Shown here: in pieces, positions 50,271 through 58,299 of the stretch
How positions within the stretch are numbered: the stretch's first letter is position 1
Layout of the letters: the number at the start of each line of letters is the position of its first letter
Source of the DNA: Chthonomonas calidirosea
Lineage (GTDB): Bacteria; Armatimonadota; Fimbriimonadia; Fimbriimonadales; Fimbriimonadaceae
Direction: 5' to 3'
NCBI GenBank assembly: GCA_945882415.1
Contig: CAMCWC010000001.1
Span: forward strand, 62,001-126,000
Length of the DNA stretch: 64,000 nt
Position numbers and translations under genes: made by a program
Notes under the pieces: model-generated
Databases searched by the model: none
The model's input: only the letters and a program-made list of their open reading frames with translations
What the model was told of the DNA's origin: nothing

Positions 50271-51527
50271 TCAGAGCTTGTCGATCTGGGCGATTCGCTG
50301 GAAGACTTCTTGCGCCTTCGCGATTGCGGTATCGGGTGTGTTCGGGATCAGGAACGGCGGTTGATTCACCTCGATATCTGGCGTGACGCCCTTGCCTTCA
50401 AGTCGAAGCCCCTTGATCGTGACGTAATCGCTGAGGGGGTACTGCAACGTAAACCCACTCGTGAGCGGAGCGATGACCGAAACCAGCACGGCTCCCGCGC
50501 TCTTTCGCCCGATGATCGTTGCGCCGCCGACTTCGCGAAGGGCGGCTGCCGCCATCTCGGAAGCGGATCCAGACGCGCCATTCACCAAAACAACGAGATT
50601 GCCAACGAAGCGTGGCACGTCGGATTTCGGCGTTACCTTTACCTTTCGCTTTGCAAAGGTGGCGATATCGGCAAGGTCCGTGCCCGGCTTTCCGGTCTTT
50701 TCTTTGTAATCTTCCACCACGCGGCGGGAGATGAAAGTGCCGATTTCGGCGTCCTTCGGCAAGAAGCAGGAAAGCAGGTGCTGGAGGTTGTAGACCGCGC
50801 CACCGCCGTTGCCCCGCAAGTCGAGAATGAAATTGCGCTTGCCGATGCCTTTGCGAACCAGCGTTTCGACTCGGTCAGCGTTGTAGGTGAGGTCAAAAGT
50901 GTGGACGGTAAGCATCGCCGTATCGGCGTCAACCAAGTTGAACTCTTCCGGCTTTACCGTCGAATACTTCTTGCGCACGATCGAAAGGTCCTCGATCTTG
51001 CCGGTAGCCTTTTGGACTTTGATCTCGACCGTGCTGCCTTCTTCGCCAGCAATGGATTGCACTCCGGCAGAAATGGCTTTACCATTGACTTCCAAGATTC
51101 GGTCGCCTGGATTCAGGCCAACCTTTGCGGCGGGTGATCCGGCGTAAACGTAAGTGATCATCATCGTGCCGTTATCCGGCGCGACGCCGATGCCGATGCC
51201 AGTGTTCTTAGCCTCGCGGCGCACGCTTGTCGCCTTCGGCGTGTTCAGAACGATATGGCTTGCTCCGAACTTTCGTAATGCGCTGTTCACCGCGCGGGTG
51301 AACGTTTCGTCGTCGTTCGCAGCTTCAAGGCGAGATCGCTCTGCCTCCAAAAAGTCCGGCCACTTGGCAAAGTCGATGCCCGGCACGAAGGCGTTCTGAG
51401 TCAGCGCATCGGTGATGCGTGCCAAGACCGCCTGCTTCAGCTCGGGATTCTTTTCGATGACTTGGGCTGGCGCAAAGGCCGTCATCGCCGCGATAAAGGG
51501 AACAACGAATAGCTTCAAAAGCCGCAT
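50271..51527 (-). CDS. S41-family C-terminal processing peptidase
   Basis: A 418-residue exported protease of the tail-specific (CtpA/Tsp) family. A signal peptide ends near AFAPAQ (residue 22). A PDZ domain (about 95-180) has VYAGSPAAKVGLNPGDRILE, and the catalytic part has the Ser in VLVNGASGSASEM and the Lys in IIGRKSAGA. GAAGG lies before the ATG. It should cleave exported proteins near their C-termini. Confidence 0.9.
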   Translation of the reverse strand: MRLLKLFVVPFIAAMTAFAPAQVIEKNPELKQAVLARITDALTQNAFVPGIDFAKWPDFLEAERSRLEAANDDETFTRAVNSALRKFGASHIVLNTPKATSVRREAKNTGIGIGVAPDNGTMMITYVYAGSPAAKVGLNPGDRILEVNGKAISAGVQSIAGEEGSTVEIKVQKATGKIEDLSIVRKKYSTVKPEEFNLVDADTAMLTVHTFDLTYNADRVETLVRKGIGKRNFILDLRGNGGGAVYNLQHLLSCFLPKDAEIGTFISRRVVEDYKEKTGKPGTDLADIATFAKRKVKVTPKSDVPRFVGNLVVLVNGASGSASEMAAAALREVGGATIIGRKSAGAVLVSVIAPLTSGFTLQYPLSDYVTIKGLRLEGKGVTPDIEVNQPPFLIPNTPDTAIAKAQEVFQRIAQIDKL

Positions 51528-51598: not shown

Positions 51599-51898
51599 CT
51601 ATTCCTCGTAAACCTCGACTCGGATTCCGATTTCGGAAATGATGGCGGATACGGTTTCGCACTCATCTTTCCCGCCGTGGTGGACCACCGACTTGCCGAG
51701 GTGATGCACCTCCCAAGTTTCCATTTCGGCTTCGTCCACCGTGCAGCCGGTCGCCAAAAGAAGAATGTGGATGACTTCCTCCACTGAATTGCTATCGTTG
51801 TCGTAAACCACCACCACCCAGCGTTCCGAGCGAAGGCTGTCTCCAAGGTCCGGGCGTTCAATCGTGCTTGGGGCGGCGTTGAGAATCATTCGGGCCAT
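51599..51898 (-). CDS. ClpS-like adaptor, second copy
   Basis: A 99-residue ClpS-fold protein. Its N-end-binding region reads VVVVYDNDSNSVEEVIHIL where E. coli ClpS has the NDDYTPM segment, and the later EVHHLGKSVVHHGGKDECE keeps the His of the binding pocket. The Asn of NDD is Asp, the first Asp is Asn, and the gatekeeper Met is Val. ClpS proteins feed N-degron substrates to ClpAP/ClpCP. It overlaps the first clpS-like gene by 13 bp and ends the operon. Confidence 0.75.
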   Translation of the reverse strand: MARMILNAAPSTIERPDLGDSLRSERWVVVVYDNDSNSVEEVIHILLLATGCTVDEAEMETWEVHHLGKSVVHHGGKDECETVSAIISEIGIRVEVYEE

Positions 51899-52173
51899 TC
51901 TTTGGTCACCTCGGTTTTAATCCCAACGGATGAGATGGTCGTGGCGACAGTGTCGCACTCTTCCCGGGCGGCGAAGTGAACGCTCGCTTTTCCAAACGTA
52001 TGCGCCTCCCACATCTCGATGTAAGCCTCTGTTTCGTCGCAGCCGGTGGCTTCCATGAGAATCTCGATCACCTCGTCCATGGAGTTGGTGTCGTTATTGA
52101 ACATGACGACCATCCAGCGCCCTTGGTTGCCATACTGCTCGCTAAAGATCGGTTCGAGTAGCGGCTGGCTCAT
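51886..52173 (-). CDS. ClpS-like adaptor, first copy
   Basis: A 95-residue ClpS-fold protein whose pocket region reads MVVMFNNDTNSMDEVIEIL; compared with NDD it has NND, and the gatekeeper Met is kept. EAHTFGKASVHFAAREECD carries the conserved His. The frame is open to 52356, but that part lies inside the upstream gene; the ATG at 52173 overlaps its stop (ATGA). Two ClpS-like genes in tandem behind a membrane-protein gene is not a layout I know. The second copy shares about half its residues by eye. Confidence 0.8.
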   Translation of the reverse strand: MSQPLLEPIFSEQYGNQGRWMVVMFNNDTNSMDEVIEILMEATGCDETEAYIEMWEAHTFGKASVHFAAREECDTVATTISSVGIKTEVTKEWPE

Positions 52174-54392
52174 TCCTTTTCTGACCTTGGAAAGGGCGTA
52201 ATGAATGAAAGTAGCAAAACAAATAAAATGAGGGCACTGAAATCGAATGTAACGTCCGTACCCCTCGGGCGAATCGTGATTTCCGGTGTGTTTGGTTCCA
52301 GGTTGAACTCGAGCCAACGCGTATCCTTCCGCGGTTCGCCAAGGTTGCTCGTCCACTCGCCGATGTTGCGGAACCGGACGGTCAACTTTCCTCCCGGCGG
52401 GGCAACGATGCGGATACCGGAGGGCGACAGCTCGGCAATCTCAAGCGGCTTGCCATCAACGTCGGCCAAGCCAGGTCCATCAACCTTATAAACGTAGTAG
52501 CCATCCCGTTGAACGGGATCGGCGGTCATGGAGGCAAGCGGATTGCGGCTCCACACCTCGGTCACGCCCGCATCGGCGGCTTTCTTTGGGTCGAAAGTGT
52601 CCTTAACGAACATCATGTTCCCGTTCGCCGGTGGAGGCGAATCTTGGCCATTGATGTCATTTAGCATCGCGACGGTGTCGCGGTGTACGAGGGAGTCATA
52701 TCCACCCAGTTCCGGTTGCCGAAGCATCGTCGCCGTGTTGGGCGGCAAAACCGCCGGAGCGGCCGTGAGCAAGTCCCAATCGTTGTTGACCACCGCGATG
52801 CGAGTCTTCGCTGGTTCTGCCTTTGCTACCAGTGGTTTGCCGAACATAATTGGGTTGAAGGACAGGATCCATGCGATGCCAAAAACGGTCACGAGGCCAA
52901 GAGCTCCGTGGGTTTTCTTCTTTTCATCTGGCATCTGGAGAAACACGAAACAGCCGACAACCAGCAATATCCCCAGTAATGCCGTGGTAGCACCAGAGAT
53001 AAAGCCTGCCGCCGCTAGCTGACTGATCACTTCCGCGGGCACGTTAGTTGGCGTGAAAGTGCCATTGAGAACGGGCACCACCAAGATGGAGAGCAGCACG
53101 ACTCCAAGCCCAATCCAGCTTTTCTTCGTGAAGTTCTGAACCGTATTTGATGCTCCAAGCCCGGCAAGCAAACTTGCCCCGAGGACAAACAGCACAATGA
53201 CGCGCCCCGGCGAACCGGTTGCGGACCAACCCGGTACGTTGAAGTACAGCACCGCATTGAGCGGGGAACCAAAGGCAATAAGGGCCGCGCCGATGCAGAG
53301 CGATGCGGCAAACCATGTTCGCTTAGCTCGCCAATTGCCAAGGAAGAAGAAGGCGAGGATGAGCGGACCAAGCGTTAACGCTCCTTCGGCGTAGTTCGCG
53401 CCTCGAACGGCGATTGCGGGCCAGTACTCCGAAACCTTGATCCCCGGGGCGGCCTCGGGACCCGCGACTCGAGGGTTGCCAAGCATGGTCGGAGACGAAA
53501 GTGCGCTGAGATGGAATGGTTTGAGCGACGAAGCAACGTAAGCTTCGTAGCCTTCCGGAGTTGGACTTCCGCGACGATGTGAGAACTGCGAATACTCAAG
53601 AACCGTTCGAACCTGCGGCCCGGCAACCAAAGTGCCGATGGCAAGAGCCATGAAGATCATCATCGCCCGATTCCCGAGTGCGCTTTTCGGCTGTGCGATC
53701 AAGCTTGCGACAATTGCCAGACCAATCGCACCTAGTCCGTAAGCAGCAAATTGCAAGTGGCCAGCTAGGAGAACGAGCGCAATTGGGGCCGCGAGTTGAA
53801 GAGTGGCGAAGCCGTCGAGCCGATCCTTCGGCAGACTTAATGCCGCCGCGATGCCCCAGGGGATCCAGCAAACTGTTGTGATCACGCTCGGCAGCGCCGT
53901 CCAGGCGAGCATAAACGCGCTCGTCCCAAACCCAACCGCCGAAACCGTCTGCCCGAACTCATTCGCTCCGAGCGCCTTCGCCGCCTTTGCCGTGCCCAAA
54001 GCAGCAAGGGACAAGTGCAGCCAGGCCAAAAGCACAATCGCGAGTCCGGTCGGAATTTTCAGAATGCCGACGAGGATGTGGAACGGATACAGCGCGCCGG
54101 ATTGAGAATTTGCAAGCAGCGGAGTGCCGCCAAGTTCATATGGATTCCAAACCGGAACCTCAAACCGCCCCCAACTTTGGAAGACCAGGTCGCGCCAGAC
54201 ATAGAACTGAAGGACGCTATCGGCCTGAAGGACATCCCAAGGCACGCTTGGCTTTTCGCCATTCCATGGTGCCATTTGCCGAATTTGGTCAAAGGCTCCG
54301 ATGGTGCTGCCGCTGAAAAGAGCCGGGGCAATGGGAATGAATCCGAGCAGAATGCACAGGATAAGATTCCAGTGCTTGCGGATCGGAGGCAT
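52170..54392 (-). CDS. YfhO-like membrane protein
   Basis: A 740-residue polytopic protein with about a dozen membrane helices and a C-terminal extracytoplasmic part. Early segments (GAFDQIRQMAPWNGEKP, DSVLQFYVWRDLVFQSW, VPVWNPYELGGTPLLANSQ) match the YfhO family, a GT-C-like group linked to lipid or cell-wall glycosylation. It follows the TPR gene by 15 bp and overlaps the first clpS-like gene by 4 bp. A short helix ends the protein (FSALILFVLLLSF), as in membrane-anchored domains. The substrate is unknown. Confidence 0.7.
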   Translation of the reverse strand: MPPIRKHWNLILCILLGFIPIAPALFSGSTIGAFDQIRQMAPWNGEKPSVPWDVLQADSVLQFYVWRDLVFQSWGRFEVPVWNPYELGGTPLLANSQSGALYPFHILVGILKIPTGLAIVLLAWLHLSLAALGTAKAAKALGANEFGQTVSAVGFGTSAFMLAWTALPSVITTVCWIPWGIAAALSLPKDRLDGFATLQLAAPIALVLLAGHLQFAAYGLGAIGLAIVASLIAQPKSALGNRAMMIFMALAIGTLVAGPQVRTVLEYSQFSHRRGSPTPEGYEAYVASSLKPFHLSALSSPTMLGNPRVAGPEAAPGIKVSEYWPAIAVRGANYAEGALTLGPLILAFFFLGNWRAKRTWFAASLCIGAALIAFGSPLNAVLYFNVPGWSATGSPGRVIVLFVLGASLLAGLGASNTVQNFTKKSWIGLGVVLLSILVVPVLNGTFTPTNVPAEVISQLAAAGFISGATTALLGILLVVGCFVFLQMPDEKKKTHGALGLVTVFGIAWILSFNPIMFGKPLVAKAEPAKTRIAVVNNDWDLLTAAPAVLPPNTATMLRQPELGGYDSLVHRDTVAMLNDINGQDSPPPANGNMMFVKDTFDPKKAADAGVTEVWSRNPLASMTADPVQRDGYYVYKVDGPGLADVDGKPLEIAELSPSGIRIVAPPGGKLTVRFRNIGEWTSNLGEPRKDTRWLEFNLEPNTPEITIRPRGTDVTFDFSALILFVLLLSFITPFPRSEKE

Positions 54393-54407: not shown

Positions 54408-54764
54408 CTAGAAGTAAGCCAGCTGTTGGCGAGCCTTTTCGTGGCTTGGGTTTACGGCAACAATGATCCGAAAATTGTGCGCGGCCTCGTCGTTCATGCC
54501 CAGCATCATCTGGGTCATCGCGAGGTCGTAGCGAACATCCAGATCATTGGGGTCCTGAGTGCTGAGCGTTTGTAAGGTCTCAAGGCTGCCGTCAAAATCG
54601 CCTTCGAAGCCTTGAATCAAGCCCATTTGGTGGCGAGCTCTAATGTGTCCAGGCTCTTGGTTTAGGACGCTCTCCAGATAGAGTCGGGCTTCCCCATATC
54701 TACCGGCGCAACGTGCATCAAATCCTTTTTGGTAGAGCGCTTCGATTTGGTTTTGATCCGCCAT
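54408..54764 (-). CDS. TPR-repeat protein
   Basis: A 118-residue protein made of about three tetratricopeptide repeats: ALYQKGFDARCAGRYGEARLY, ARHQMGLIQGFEGDFDGSLE and VRYDLAMTQMMLGMNDEAAH. No signal peptide, so it is cytoplasmic. The ATG at 54764 is chosen; a TTG at 54770 is six bases after TATACT (54777-54782) and would fit a leaderless start. It heads the operon with the YfhO-like and ClpS-like genes. Its partner is unknown; TPRs usually bind proteins. Confidence 0.75.
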   Translation of the reverse strand: MADQNQIEALYQKGFDARCAGRYGEARLYLESVLNQEPGHIRARHQMGLIQGFEGDFDGSLETLQTLSTQDPNDLDVRYDLAMTQMMLGMNDEAAHNFRIIVAVNPSHEKARQQLAYF

Positions 54765-54804
54765 TGCCAAGATAGCAGTATATCACCGGCAGGCGAGAAT
54801 GTCA

Positions 54805-54835
54805 GTTCCCCGACGAAGCGCATTTGTCGGGGAAC
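54805..54835 (-). terminator. perfect hairpin after ftsH
   Basis: A perfect 10-bp stem (GTTCCCCGAC with GTCGGGGAAC) and an 11-base loop, beginning 15 bases after the ftsH stop on the reverse strand. No T-run follows. It may be a U-less terminator for ftsH, or a structure ahead of the TPR operon, whose start is 35-40 bases further on. Confidence 0.5.
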
Positions 54836-54850
54836 ATCACTTATTTTTGG

Positions 54851-56815
54851 CTAGGCCGGGCCTGGCTCAAGGCGAGGCGGGCTCACCTGTGGACGCTTTT
54901 CGTCCTGTTCTGATTGGTTAGACGGGCTCTCGGTCCCGGTTTGATCGCTCGGCGCTGAAAGTTCTTCCATCGGAGCCAGCGTTTCTCCGGCAAGGACGGC
55001 CAGGAACTCTTCCCGATTGAGCGTTTCTCGTTCCATCAGGGCAGCAACCACGGCAATCATCTTGTCGCGATTGTTGGTGATGAGCTCGGTGGCGCGATGG
55101 TGACAGTCATCAACGATGCTGCGAACCTCTTCGTCAATCTGCCGAGCAATGTCTTCCGAATAGTTTCGGTCCTCGTTGTAATCGCGGCCCAAGAATGGGT
55201 TGTTGCTGATGCGACCAATGGCGAGGGTGCCGAGCTTATCGCTCATACCGAACTCGCAAACCATCGCCCGAGCGATTCGCGTTACGCGGGCAAGGTCGTT
55301 GCTCGCTCCCGTCCATCGTTCGCCGTAGATGACCTCTTCGGCTACCAAACCGCCAAGAAGCATCGCGATGTCGTCCAGCAACTCAGACTTGCTCTGCGTG
55401 TACTTTTCAACTTCAGGCAGCGACCAAGTCGTGCCGAGCGTTCGTCCTCGTGGAAGGATCGTGACCTTGTGGATCGGGTCGGTGTGCTCAAGCAACTCAC
55501 CGATGATCGCGTGACCTGCCTCGTGGTAGGCCGTAACTTCTCGTTCCTTGTCCGCTTGTCGTCGGCTGCCGAGGGCGGTACCAACCATTACGCGGTCGAG
55601 AGCTTCTTCGATTTCTCGCTTGCCGATCTTGTTCTTGTTGTTGCGGGCGGCGATAAGGGCCGCTTCGTTCAACGTGTTTGCCAAGTCTGCGCCGGAGAAG
55701 CCTGGGGTTCGTCGAGCGACGGTTTCCATGCTCACGTCGGTTTCGATCGGCTTGCCCTTGGCGTGAATCTTGAGGATCGCTTCACGGCCCTTCGCGTCCG
55801 GAGCGTCGACTACAACCTGTCGGTCGAATCGGCCGGGTCGAAGCAATGCTGGGTCCAGAACGTCCGGTCGGTTTGTTGCGGCGATCATAATGACGCCGGA
55901 ATTTGGATCAAAGCCGTCCATCTCGACCAGAAGCTGGTTCAGGGTTTGCTCTCGCTCGTCGTGACCGCCACCGAGACCCGCGCCACGCTGGCGACCGACG
56001 GCGTCGATTTCGTCGACGAAGATCAGCGACGGGCGGTGAGCCTTTGCCGTTTCGAAGAGATCTCGAACTCGGGCGGCACCAACACCGACGAACATTTCAA
56101 CAAAGTCCGAACCGCTGATGTGGAAGAACGGTACGCCAGCTTCTCCCGCGATGGCTCGAGCAAGGTAGGTCTTACCAACGCCAGGAGGGCCCGTCAGCAG
56201 AATGCCCTTCGGAATCTTCGCGCCAAGCGCGGCATATTTGCGGGTGTTCTTCAGGAAGTCGACGATCTCGAAGAGTTCGGCTTTCGCTTCTTCGATCCCG
56301 GCAACGTCATCAAAAGTGATCTTCGGTCCGCTCTCGCCAACTCGGCGTGCCTTGCTCTTACCGAAGCTCATGGCCTGATTTCCGCCCATCTGTGCGGGGC
56401 GAAGGACCAAGAAGTAAAGGAGCGCGAAGAAGAGGATGGGGATGCCGATGAACGTCAGCGCGTTCATGATGCCGGTGATCGGCGGGGCATCTTCAAACTT
56501 GATGTCGGCAGAAGTCTTTTTGGCTTCGATTTCGCGGAGAATTGCCGCGCCGGTGGGAGTCTGCTGTTCGGGTACGCGAAGGGTGTAGCGCCCAGCGTTT
56601 CCAGCAAGTTCGCCGCTGATGGTGTTTTGTTGCCAGCGAATCGTCTTGATCTGGTCGTTGTCGAGCTCTTTGTAAAACGTGGAGATCGTGAGTTCTTTTG
56701 GCGGGGATCCACCCAACCGGAAGGTGCTCGATGACATAAACGTGTTCATCAGAACCACGATTGCCACGATGAATATGACCACTGCTAGGATGGTACGTGC
56801 GGGTTGTTTCGTCAA
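54851..56815 (-). CDS. ftsH: ATP-dependent zinc metalloprotease FtsH
   Basis: A 654-residue membrane protease that degrades membrane and regulatory proteins. Two membrane helices (about 8-25 and 112-132) flank a small outer domain; the AAA+ part has Walker [12 protein letters not shown], Walker [12 protein letters not shown] and the SRH region, and the zinc site is AYHEAGHAI. The start is TTG at 56815 with GGAG five bases upstream, so it is well placed. The tail (from about 615) is Ser/Pro/Glu-rich. It follows tilS by 84 bp on the same strand, a common neighbour pair. Confidence 0.95.
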
Positions 56816-56898: not shown

Positions 56899-58299
56899 TT
56901 ACCGAACGGGCCCAAAAGCCATTCGGACTGCTCGCTTGGTGGCCGCTGATGGCCTTAGCCGCTGATCGTAGCAAACCCCCGGAGCCCAAAGTGGCCCGAT
57001 TAGGTCGCATACGATTGGCAACCGCTGTCGAATGGCAGAGCTCAGCTTAGCTTCGCTCATAAGATCCGCAAGCATTCGACGTCCGGCGAACCCGCTGGGT
57101 TGCATTTGGTCGCCGGATTGTGCGTTGCGAAAGTACAAGCTGCCCTTTATCTCATCCGCCGAGAAGTCCGCCACGAGGGCGTTTCTTGGAGCAACTTCTC
57201 CGGTAGGTTCAATCGGCTCGGCCGTCAGCATCCAGCCCAGTTCGTCGCTCGCTGTCTCGCCGGGGAAGGTGAGCGGATACCGAAACGGCGCAACCGCCGT
57301 AAGGTCTCGCACTCGGAAGGTCTCATCGTTCCAGTCGGCCGTCGCGGTGCCGCCCTCGGCGGTGATCGAGCCGGGCTCGCGCGCGAACTGTTCTGCAATC
57401 ACCGTCGTTTGGTCGAAATCGAGTTCTCCCCCGACGGCACGGACCGCCAGGCGAATGGCCCGCTTAAGCAAAACCGGAGGCAGATGCCCGAGCTTTAGGA
57501 CATCAAAGGTGGCCTCATAAGGGGAGCCGATGAAGCCAAGCTCGTGTTCGGGATGTATCTCCGCTTGCTCCAATGCCGCGGCGGCCATGCCGTTGAGAAA
57601 GCGATCTTCCTCTCCAATCAAGCTCGCCGTCCTTGCGATGCTGGCGGAGTAGTCGGGATTCAACTCGGCGAGTTCAGGAGCGATGTTCAACCGAATCCGG
57701 CTCCGCCGGTTGTTCACATCGACATTCGCCGGGTCGTCATGGAACCACAGCCCATGCTCCTCACAGTAGTCGCGAGTCTCTTCCCGAGTGAACGGCAAGA
57801 GCGGGCGAATGATGTTCTCGCGAGATTCTGGGATCCCGCTCAGGCCGGTCATGCCGGTACCGCGGGCGAGATTGAAAATCACCGTTTCCACTAGGTCGCT
57901 TTGCGTGTGACCTGTCGCAATCAGTTGACACTCGGACTGCATGGACGCATTTCGAAAGAAGGCATACCGCGCATTTCGCCCTGCTTCTTCAAGGCTCAAT
58001 TTCAGTTCCCGGCTCATGAGCGGCACGTCGGCCCGACCAGCGATGAATGGAATATTGAGATCCTGCGCGAACGCCTGGCACAGCCCTAGCTCTTTGTCTG
58101 CCGAAGCCCGCATGCCGTGGTGAAGGTGCGCGGCTACGACATCGATTCCAAGTTGACAGAGGAGATGCAGCAAGCAAGTGCTATCCGCGCCGCCGCTGTA
58201 AGCCACCAAAACGCGGGGACCATTCGAGCTGGCAATACCGAGGTTTGAATCGCGAAGCAAACCGGACGAATCGAGGTGTTTTTTGAAGCGATCCAGCAC
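56899..58299 (-). CDS. tilS: tRNA(Ile)-lysidine synthase
   Basis: A 466-residue enzyme that adds lysine to C34 of the AUA-reading tRNA-Ile. The PP-loop is VLVAYSGGADSTCLLHLL, and AHLHHGMRASADKELGLCQ, TGHTQSDLVETVIFNLARG and RPLLPFTREETRDYCEEHG follow in the usual order. The start is GTG at 58299 with no clear Shine-Dalgarno site. The C-terminal third (about 310-466) matches the length of the full-size bacterial form. ftsH lies downstream, as in many bacteria. Confidence 0.93.
   Translation of the reverse strand: MLDRFKKHLDSSGLLRDSNLGIASSNGPRVLVAYSGGADSTCLLHLLCQLGIDVVAAHLHHGMRASADKELGLCQAFAQDLNIPFIAGRADVPLMSRELKLSLEEAGRNARYAFFRNASMQSECQLIATGHTQSDLVETVIFNLARGTGMTGLSGIPESRENIIRPLLPFTREETRDYCEEHGLWFHDDPANVDVNNRRSRIRLNIAPELAELNPDYSASIARTASLIGEEDRFLNGMAAAALEQAEIHPEHELGFIGSPYEATFDVLKLGHLPPVLLKRAIRLAVRAVGGELDFDQTTVIAEQFAREPGSITAEGGTATADWNDETFRVRDLTAVAPFRYPLTFPGETASDELGWMLTAEPIEPTGEVAPRNALVADFSADEIKGSLYFRNAQSGDQMQPSGFAGRRMLADLMSEAKLSSAIRQRLPIVCDLIGPLWAPGVCYDQRLRPSAATKRAVRMAFGPVR

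Follow-up and report, generated by a model that had tools for sequence, protein, structure and literature searches.

Adaptor proteins of the ClpS family select substrates for a protease according to the residue at the substrate N-terminus. To our knowledge, few ClpS proteins have so far informed the picture of N-degron recognition in bacteria, all of them built on one NDD-Met-His pocket. Among eukaryotic E3 ligases, UBR1 and UBR2 carry the type 2 N-degron site in their N-domain. In Caulobacter ClpS, the contacts to the substrate amino group, as given in PMC12493166, are Asn47, Asp49 and His79, which correspond to N34, D36 and H66 in the E. coli numbering used throughout this work. The first aspartate of the NDD motif, Asp35, was called universally conserved in ClpS in a paper on Mycobacterium ClpC1, where a simulation pairs it with Lys85 of ClpC1 (PMC6274998). 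ClpS paralogues with different pockets are already known from cyanobacteria, where ClpS1 and ClpS2 work with ClpC and display different N-terminal preferences (PMC7966870), and from Leptospira interrogans, where ClpS1 (LIC11356) carries Asp66, Tyr40 and Val84 and binds ClpA with a Kd of 0.44 μM in a reaction that requires the ClpA N-domain (PMC12493166).

The window analyzed here, that is the whole stretch of 64,000 nucleotides, belongs to a genome of the Fimbriimonadaceae (Armatimonadota) of 3.36 Mb that is 99% complete. It contains two ClpS-like genes, S1 and S2, as the original prediction had it, and their coding sequences, as read from the window, overlap by 13 bp. The ATG of S1 and the stop codon of the preceding YfhO-like open reading frame share 4 bp, and S1 and S2 might well be translated as a coupled pair. 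The clpS1 gene of Leptospira, in contrast, lies apart from clpS2, which adjoins clpA (PMC12493166), and the tandem, overlapping arrangement also differs from that of the two cyanobacterial paralogues, as does the set of pocket changes. Features of the locus are collected in the following table.

Features of the S1-S2 locus, in window coordinates
Feature	Coordinates	Strand	Basis
S1, first ClpS-like adaptor, 95 aa	51886..52173	-	ORF; PF02617 51.3 bits; AlphaFold2 model
S2, second ClpS-like adaptor, 99 aa	51599..51898	-	ORF; PF02617 44.9 bits; AlphaFold2 model
GAGGTGA, Shine-Dalgarno-like	51906..51912	-	7 nt 5' of S2 ATG, within S1 coding sequence; read from sequence
Large membrane protein gene, called YfhO-like	52170..54392	-	ORF
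Small TPR-repeat protein	54408..54770	-	TPR_19 1.2e-11, further TPR models
ftsH, membrane AAA+ zinc protease	54851..56815	-	TIGR01241 801 bits, cut-off 600
tilS, tRNA-Ile lysidine synthase	56899..58299	-	PF01171 3.1e-45, PF11734 8.5e-8

The position of the pair behind a YfhO-like and a TPR gene had been recognized correctly from the sequence, but ftsH and tilS had been missed and the YfhO label proved weak. A Pfam search with the YfhO-like protein of the window gave no match, and its orthologues reached at best 6e-4 against PF09586; YfhO was dropped as a firm label because this score is under the cut-off. Just 5' of the TPR gene, a promoter-like site (CTGACA-17-TATACT with TG, 10/12) is found at 54777-54805 on the minus strand, which could give rise to a separate TPR-YfhO-S1-S2 transcript without ftsH, although the frequency of such sites is not above the shuffled expectation. 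On the 3' side of the pair, a PDZ-S41 peptidase is encoded on the same strand (50271-51527), and an S41 homologue is located downstream of S1-S2 in 18 of 60 pair loci.

Both proteins score above the Pfam cut-off for ClpS of 23 bits. With the NCBIfam ClpS equivalog models (NF000668-NF000672 and NF009561-NF009564), scores stayed below the respective cut-offs, the best ones being 30.3 bits versus 107 and 28 versus 86. AlphaFold2 models, generated from alignments of 54 S1 and 47 S2 sequences, had a mean pLDDT of 89 for S1 and of 87 for S2, with values of 96-99 in the core. When compared to solved ClpS structures, the models gave Z scores of 11-15 and rmsd values mostly of 1.0-1.8 Å, the best Z being 14.2 for S1 and 15.0 for S2, whereas L7/L12 scored lower, at 9-11. 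The S2 model superimposes with its residues 25-99 on residues 25-99 of Mycolicibacterium smegmatis ClpS with 75 residues aligned, and the structural alignment is ungapped across the pocket region for both S1 and S2. According to this alignment, S1 of the window possesses N34-N35-D36, Met40, Met62 and Ala65-His66, and S2 possesses D34-N35-D36, Val40, Thr62 and Val65-His66. The motifs assigned by eye in the original prediction, NND-Met-His for S1 and DND-Val-His for S2, are thus confirmed, and no register shift restores a normal NDD-Met pocket.

S1 and S2 have the fold, the length and a flexible N-terminal extension (about 17 residues in S1 and about 24 in S2) in common with the bacterial ClpS proteins of E. 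coli, Caulobacter and Mycobacterium. S1 likewise carries N34, D36 and H66, and the genome likewise encodes a ClpA/ClpC-type unfoldase and Aat. Differences to these ClpS proteins are the replacement of Asp35 by Asn, of T38-P39 by N-S and of Lys84 by Val, as well as invariant cysteines at positions 53 and 81. The latter are present in 185 of 185 S1 and S2 sequences, are common among other ClpS of Armatimonadota, occur in human UBR1 and UBR2 and are absent from E. coli ClpS. At the positions that contact the ClpA N-domain (E79, E82, K84), S1 displays E/D/V and S2 D/E/V. Lys84 is absent from both families; acidic residues near positions 79-82 are usually kept.

Residue frequencies were determined for 80 S1 and 105 S2 sequences, all of them unique. 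Asp35, reportedly universal in ClpS although the Pfam family does not require it, is Asn in both copies of the window, in all 105 S2 sequences and in 70 of the 80 S1 sequences. Asn35 is therefore a trait of the clade and not a mark that separates the copies, and the proposal that a change of the first Asp sets the specificity of each copy is not supported. Nor does the first Asp figure among the amino-group contacts N34, D36 and H66 that PMC12493166 gives for the Caulobacter protein, and the role assigned to it in the original prediction is not supported; of these contacts, S1 keeps all three, while S2 keeps D36 and H66 and has Asp in place of Asn34. On that account, the first Asp would more likely matter for docking or for the shape of the pocket. 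The gatekeeper Met is indeed kept in S1 of the window, but it is not a trait of S1, since Met40 occurs in just 14 of 80 sequences. Positions 35, 38-40 and 66 vary more among S1 than among S2 sequences; N34, D36 and H66 are kept in most S1. Rather than position 35, it is positions 40 and 66 that separate the two families.

S1 and S2 are the only ClpS homologues above the cut-off in the host genome. A joint search for both proteins across Armatimonadota, as had been suggested, revealed 60 unique pair loci and a tandem pair that is kept across Fimbriimonadales, often as the last genes of an operon tilS-ftsH-TPR-YfhO-like-S1-S2; the pair is older and wider than had been supposed from the single locus. 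The named relatives reside in Fimbriimonadaceae and Chthonomonadales of Armatimonadota. The order is S1 and then S2 in 60 of 60 loci, and in 53 of these the start codon of S2 lies between -40 and +20 of the S1 stop codon. Profiles and the tree both separate S1 cleanly from S2 (7 changes versus 85 when shuffled), and most complete genomes of the family retain both, with S1-only genomes (G024, G047 and G065) and an S2-only genome (G046) also occurring. S1 and S2 represent two separate ClpS families whose pockets differ. A search of plasmids for relatives of S1 and S2 found none. Two apparent relatives from outside Armatimonadota, L202 (titled Methanoregulaceae archaeon SJ84) and L194 (titled Actinomycetota bacterium F1-80-MAGs030), were discarded, as they match contigs of Fimbriimonadaceae/Armatimonadota genomes and their record titles are probably wrong. 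In one Fimbriimonadales genome, a classical proteobacterial-like ClpS (L074, G085:C36, 6898-7908; 1.5e-31 versus 1e-15 for its kin) replaces the local types, possibly by lateral transfer. The sister lineage f2/g37 (for example L075) has a single ClpS with NDD, Phe40 and His66, and Aat was not detected among the genomes listed for it.

Upstream genes were counted in the 52 pair loci for which 5.2 kb of upstream sequence were available. The YfhO-like gene is found upstream in 39 of them and TPR, ftsH and tilS genes additionally in 23, with ftsH on the same strand. These 23 loci, from many genera and two families, would suit an explanation in which S1 and S2 serve FtsH as adaptors or modulators and deliver membrane or envelope substrates to it. 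The same explanation could draw on the loci L047 and L058, where the tilS-ftsH-TPR block is inverted and still adjoins the ClpS pair, which indicates that their linkage outlasts rearrangement, and on Asn35 and the lost Lys84, which depart from the known docking residues for Clp unfoldases. However, ftsH is not in the upstream position in the remaining 29 of 52 loci, and lone S2 genes of Chthonomonadales occur in other surroundings, near glnD, sbcC-like or scpA genes, so that linkage to ftsH is a trait of Fimbriimonadales and not a requirement of S2. A literature search gave no contact between ClpS and FtsH, and the promoter-like site 5' of the TPR gene, of a kind not above chance, could split the pair from ftsH. 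We consider a role with FtsH very unlikely. The earlier suggestion of envelope-linked substrates had the gene position as its sole basis and, with S2 unlinked in Chthonomonadales and the label of the YfhO-like protein weak, we do not maintain it.

At position 66, 72 of the S2 sequences carry Asp and 33 carry His, so the pocket His noted in both copies of the window is replaced by Asp in most S2 relatives, a change that had escaped the first inspection. Tyr40 accompanies Asp66 in 58 of 72 sequences and His66 in none of 33 (Fisher 1.7e-16). On the S2 tree, dependent evolution of positions 40 and 66 explained the data far better than independent evolution (Pagel LR 56.7), and 0 of 2000 simulations of independent evolution were as extreme; these tests are indicative because the tree was built from 71 columns and few of its branches are supported, and an independent-pairs test had 1 usable pair. 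Asp34 is found in 28 of the 33 S2 with His66 versus 18 of the 72 with Asp66 (Fisher 8e-9, simulation 0.007), but we do not count this pairing as a strong signal, as control columns 36, 62 and 83 give similar simulation values. Among the position pairs tested in S2, 40-66 alone stands out from the control columns. Two states of the S2 pocket can be distinguished, one with Tyr40 and Asp66 and the other with Phe, Val, Ile or Trp at position 40 and His66, usually together with Asp34. S2 of the window, with Asp34, Val40 and His66, falls into the second state, and S2 proteins from Chthonomonadales, for example L113 and L118, have the same combination of Asp34 and His66. A plain duplication of clpS, after which specificity was relaxed and neither copy acquired a function of its own, for which the differing paralogues of cyanobacteria (PMC7966870) and Leptospira offer precedents, would not predict such a tight 40-66 pairing, as drift does not, nor the clean family split, the fixed gene order and the retention of both copies in the majority of the family's complete genomes; it is quite unlikely.

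Profile alignments place Tyr40 and Asp66 also in human UBR1 and UBR2, which share this pair of residues with most S2 relatives and both cysteines with all of them. The UBR1-type combination is present in 58 of 105 S2 relatives, but the window copies lack it, S1 having M40/H66 and S2 V40/H66. Similarly, Leptospira ClpS1, a divergent second ClpS, resembles most S2 relatives in Asp66, Tyr40 and Val84 but differs from S2 of the window with its His66 and Val40. A profile of S2 found UBR1 at 3.6e-8 and UBR2 at 1.3e-7, followed by bacterial ClpS of known structure (best 0.0085), the S1 profile found UBR1 at 6e-7, and yeast Ubr1 was matched structurally with Z 11. When a profile built from ordinary ClpS of Armatimonadota was used as a control, it found E. 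coli ClpS at 6e-12 and UBR2 at 1.4e-10. The similarity to UBR proteins is therefore not peculiar to S2; S1 and S2 have drifted from classical ClpS and retained it. A descent of the UBR1 N-domain from S2 was considered and dropped, since ordinary Armatimonadota ClpS match UBR1 and UBR2 equally well. A tentative reading, possible but on balance doubtful, is that the S2 type independently took on or kept a UBR1-like Tyr40-Asp66 pocket that can be switched to His66/Asp34 and that, together with S1 in an ftsH operon, it forms a two-receptor N-degron system for a wider set of N-termini than that of classical ClpS, possibly including beta-branched residues.

Leu and Phe N-termini are made by the transferase Aat. 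The host genome encodes one ClpC (on contig C5), one ClpB and Aat (on C9, 1.6e-63). Aat and ClpS tend to occur in the same genomes: among 291 Armatimonadota genomes, Aat was found in 132 and ClpS in 161, and only 8 genomes, several of them incomplete, were positive for Aat without a ClpS match. In about 11 genomes, for example G133 (one contig), G172, G178 and G180, Aat is present and an S2-type protein is the sole ClpS found, and the copy of G180 (L118) has D34-N35-D36/His66 identical to S2 of the window. As Aat makes Leu and Phe ends, S2 would be their obvious receptor in the S2-only genomes, and this co-occurrence is the best, though indirect, evidence for an active role of S2 as an N-degron adaptor. 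For S1, the only hints of an adaptor role are that its amino-group contacts are intact and that it is conserved. Aat was not detected in some genomes that bear the pair, such as G030, G049 and G057.

With regard to the partner protease, the N-domain of ClpC shows 85-100% identity among members of the family, and the equivalent of Lys85 is invariant in Armatimonadota, whichever type of ClpS is present or if there is none. On account of this invariance, co-evolution of ClpC with Asn35 was rejected, and co-evolution hence lends no support to ClpC as the partner. The combination of Asn35 with a lost Lys84 could mean weaker or different docking. Leptospira ClpS1, however, lacks Lys84 as well and binds ClpA.

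In our preferred interpretation, to which we assign a probability of roughly 0.6, S1 and S2 are two anciently diverged N-degron adaptors for a single ClpC, with S2 reading Leu/Phe ends and S1 others; the ligand classes, docking on ClpC and the division of labour are the inferred parts of it. The N-terminal residue of a substrate would be bound in the pocket flanked by strand 1 and by helices 1 and 2, and S1 or S2 would dock on the ClpC N-domain and hand the substrate to ClpCP. The most likely ligands of S2 are the N-termini made by Aat and related hydrophobic ones, and S1 probably reads another or a broader set, as its position 40 varies widely while N34, D36 and His66 stay. Since two ClpS families with different pockets are kept as a pair, a divided specificity is the simplest reading. 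The expectation that the two copies bind different N-termini may thus stand, now suggested by two conserved families with predicted differences in their pockets, but its argument by way of the first Asp and Met40 does not. ClpS also restrains activity toward SsrA substrates. S2 alone might therefore be an N-degron adaptor, with S1 acting as a regulator, either by competing for ClpC or by restraining it, and the greater variability of S1 at positions 35, 38-40 and 66, the many Chthonomonadales that keep S2 alone and the inhibition of the ClpA ATPase by both Leptospira ClpS paralogues (PMC12493166) would fit such a role. We regard it as unlikely, as most S1 keep N34, D36 and H66 and are in this respect more classical than S2, and as G024, G047 and G065 keep only S1, with Aat still present in G024.

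With ClpS paralogues of different pockets on record in cyanobacteria and Leptospira, the novelty here lies in the tandem arrangement of the pair, in Asn35 throughout the clade and in the switch at positions 40 and 66. A phylum-wide family without Asp35, comprising ClpS-like and UBR1-like variants, offers ready comparisons from which the part of positions 40 and 66 in setting specificity could be read, and the tandem pair makes divided specificity testable inside one small operon. Should S2 turn out to bind Ile or other residues, N-terminal protein sequencing and degron tools would gain a useful reagent.
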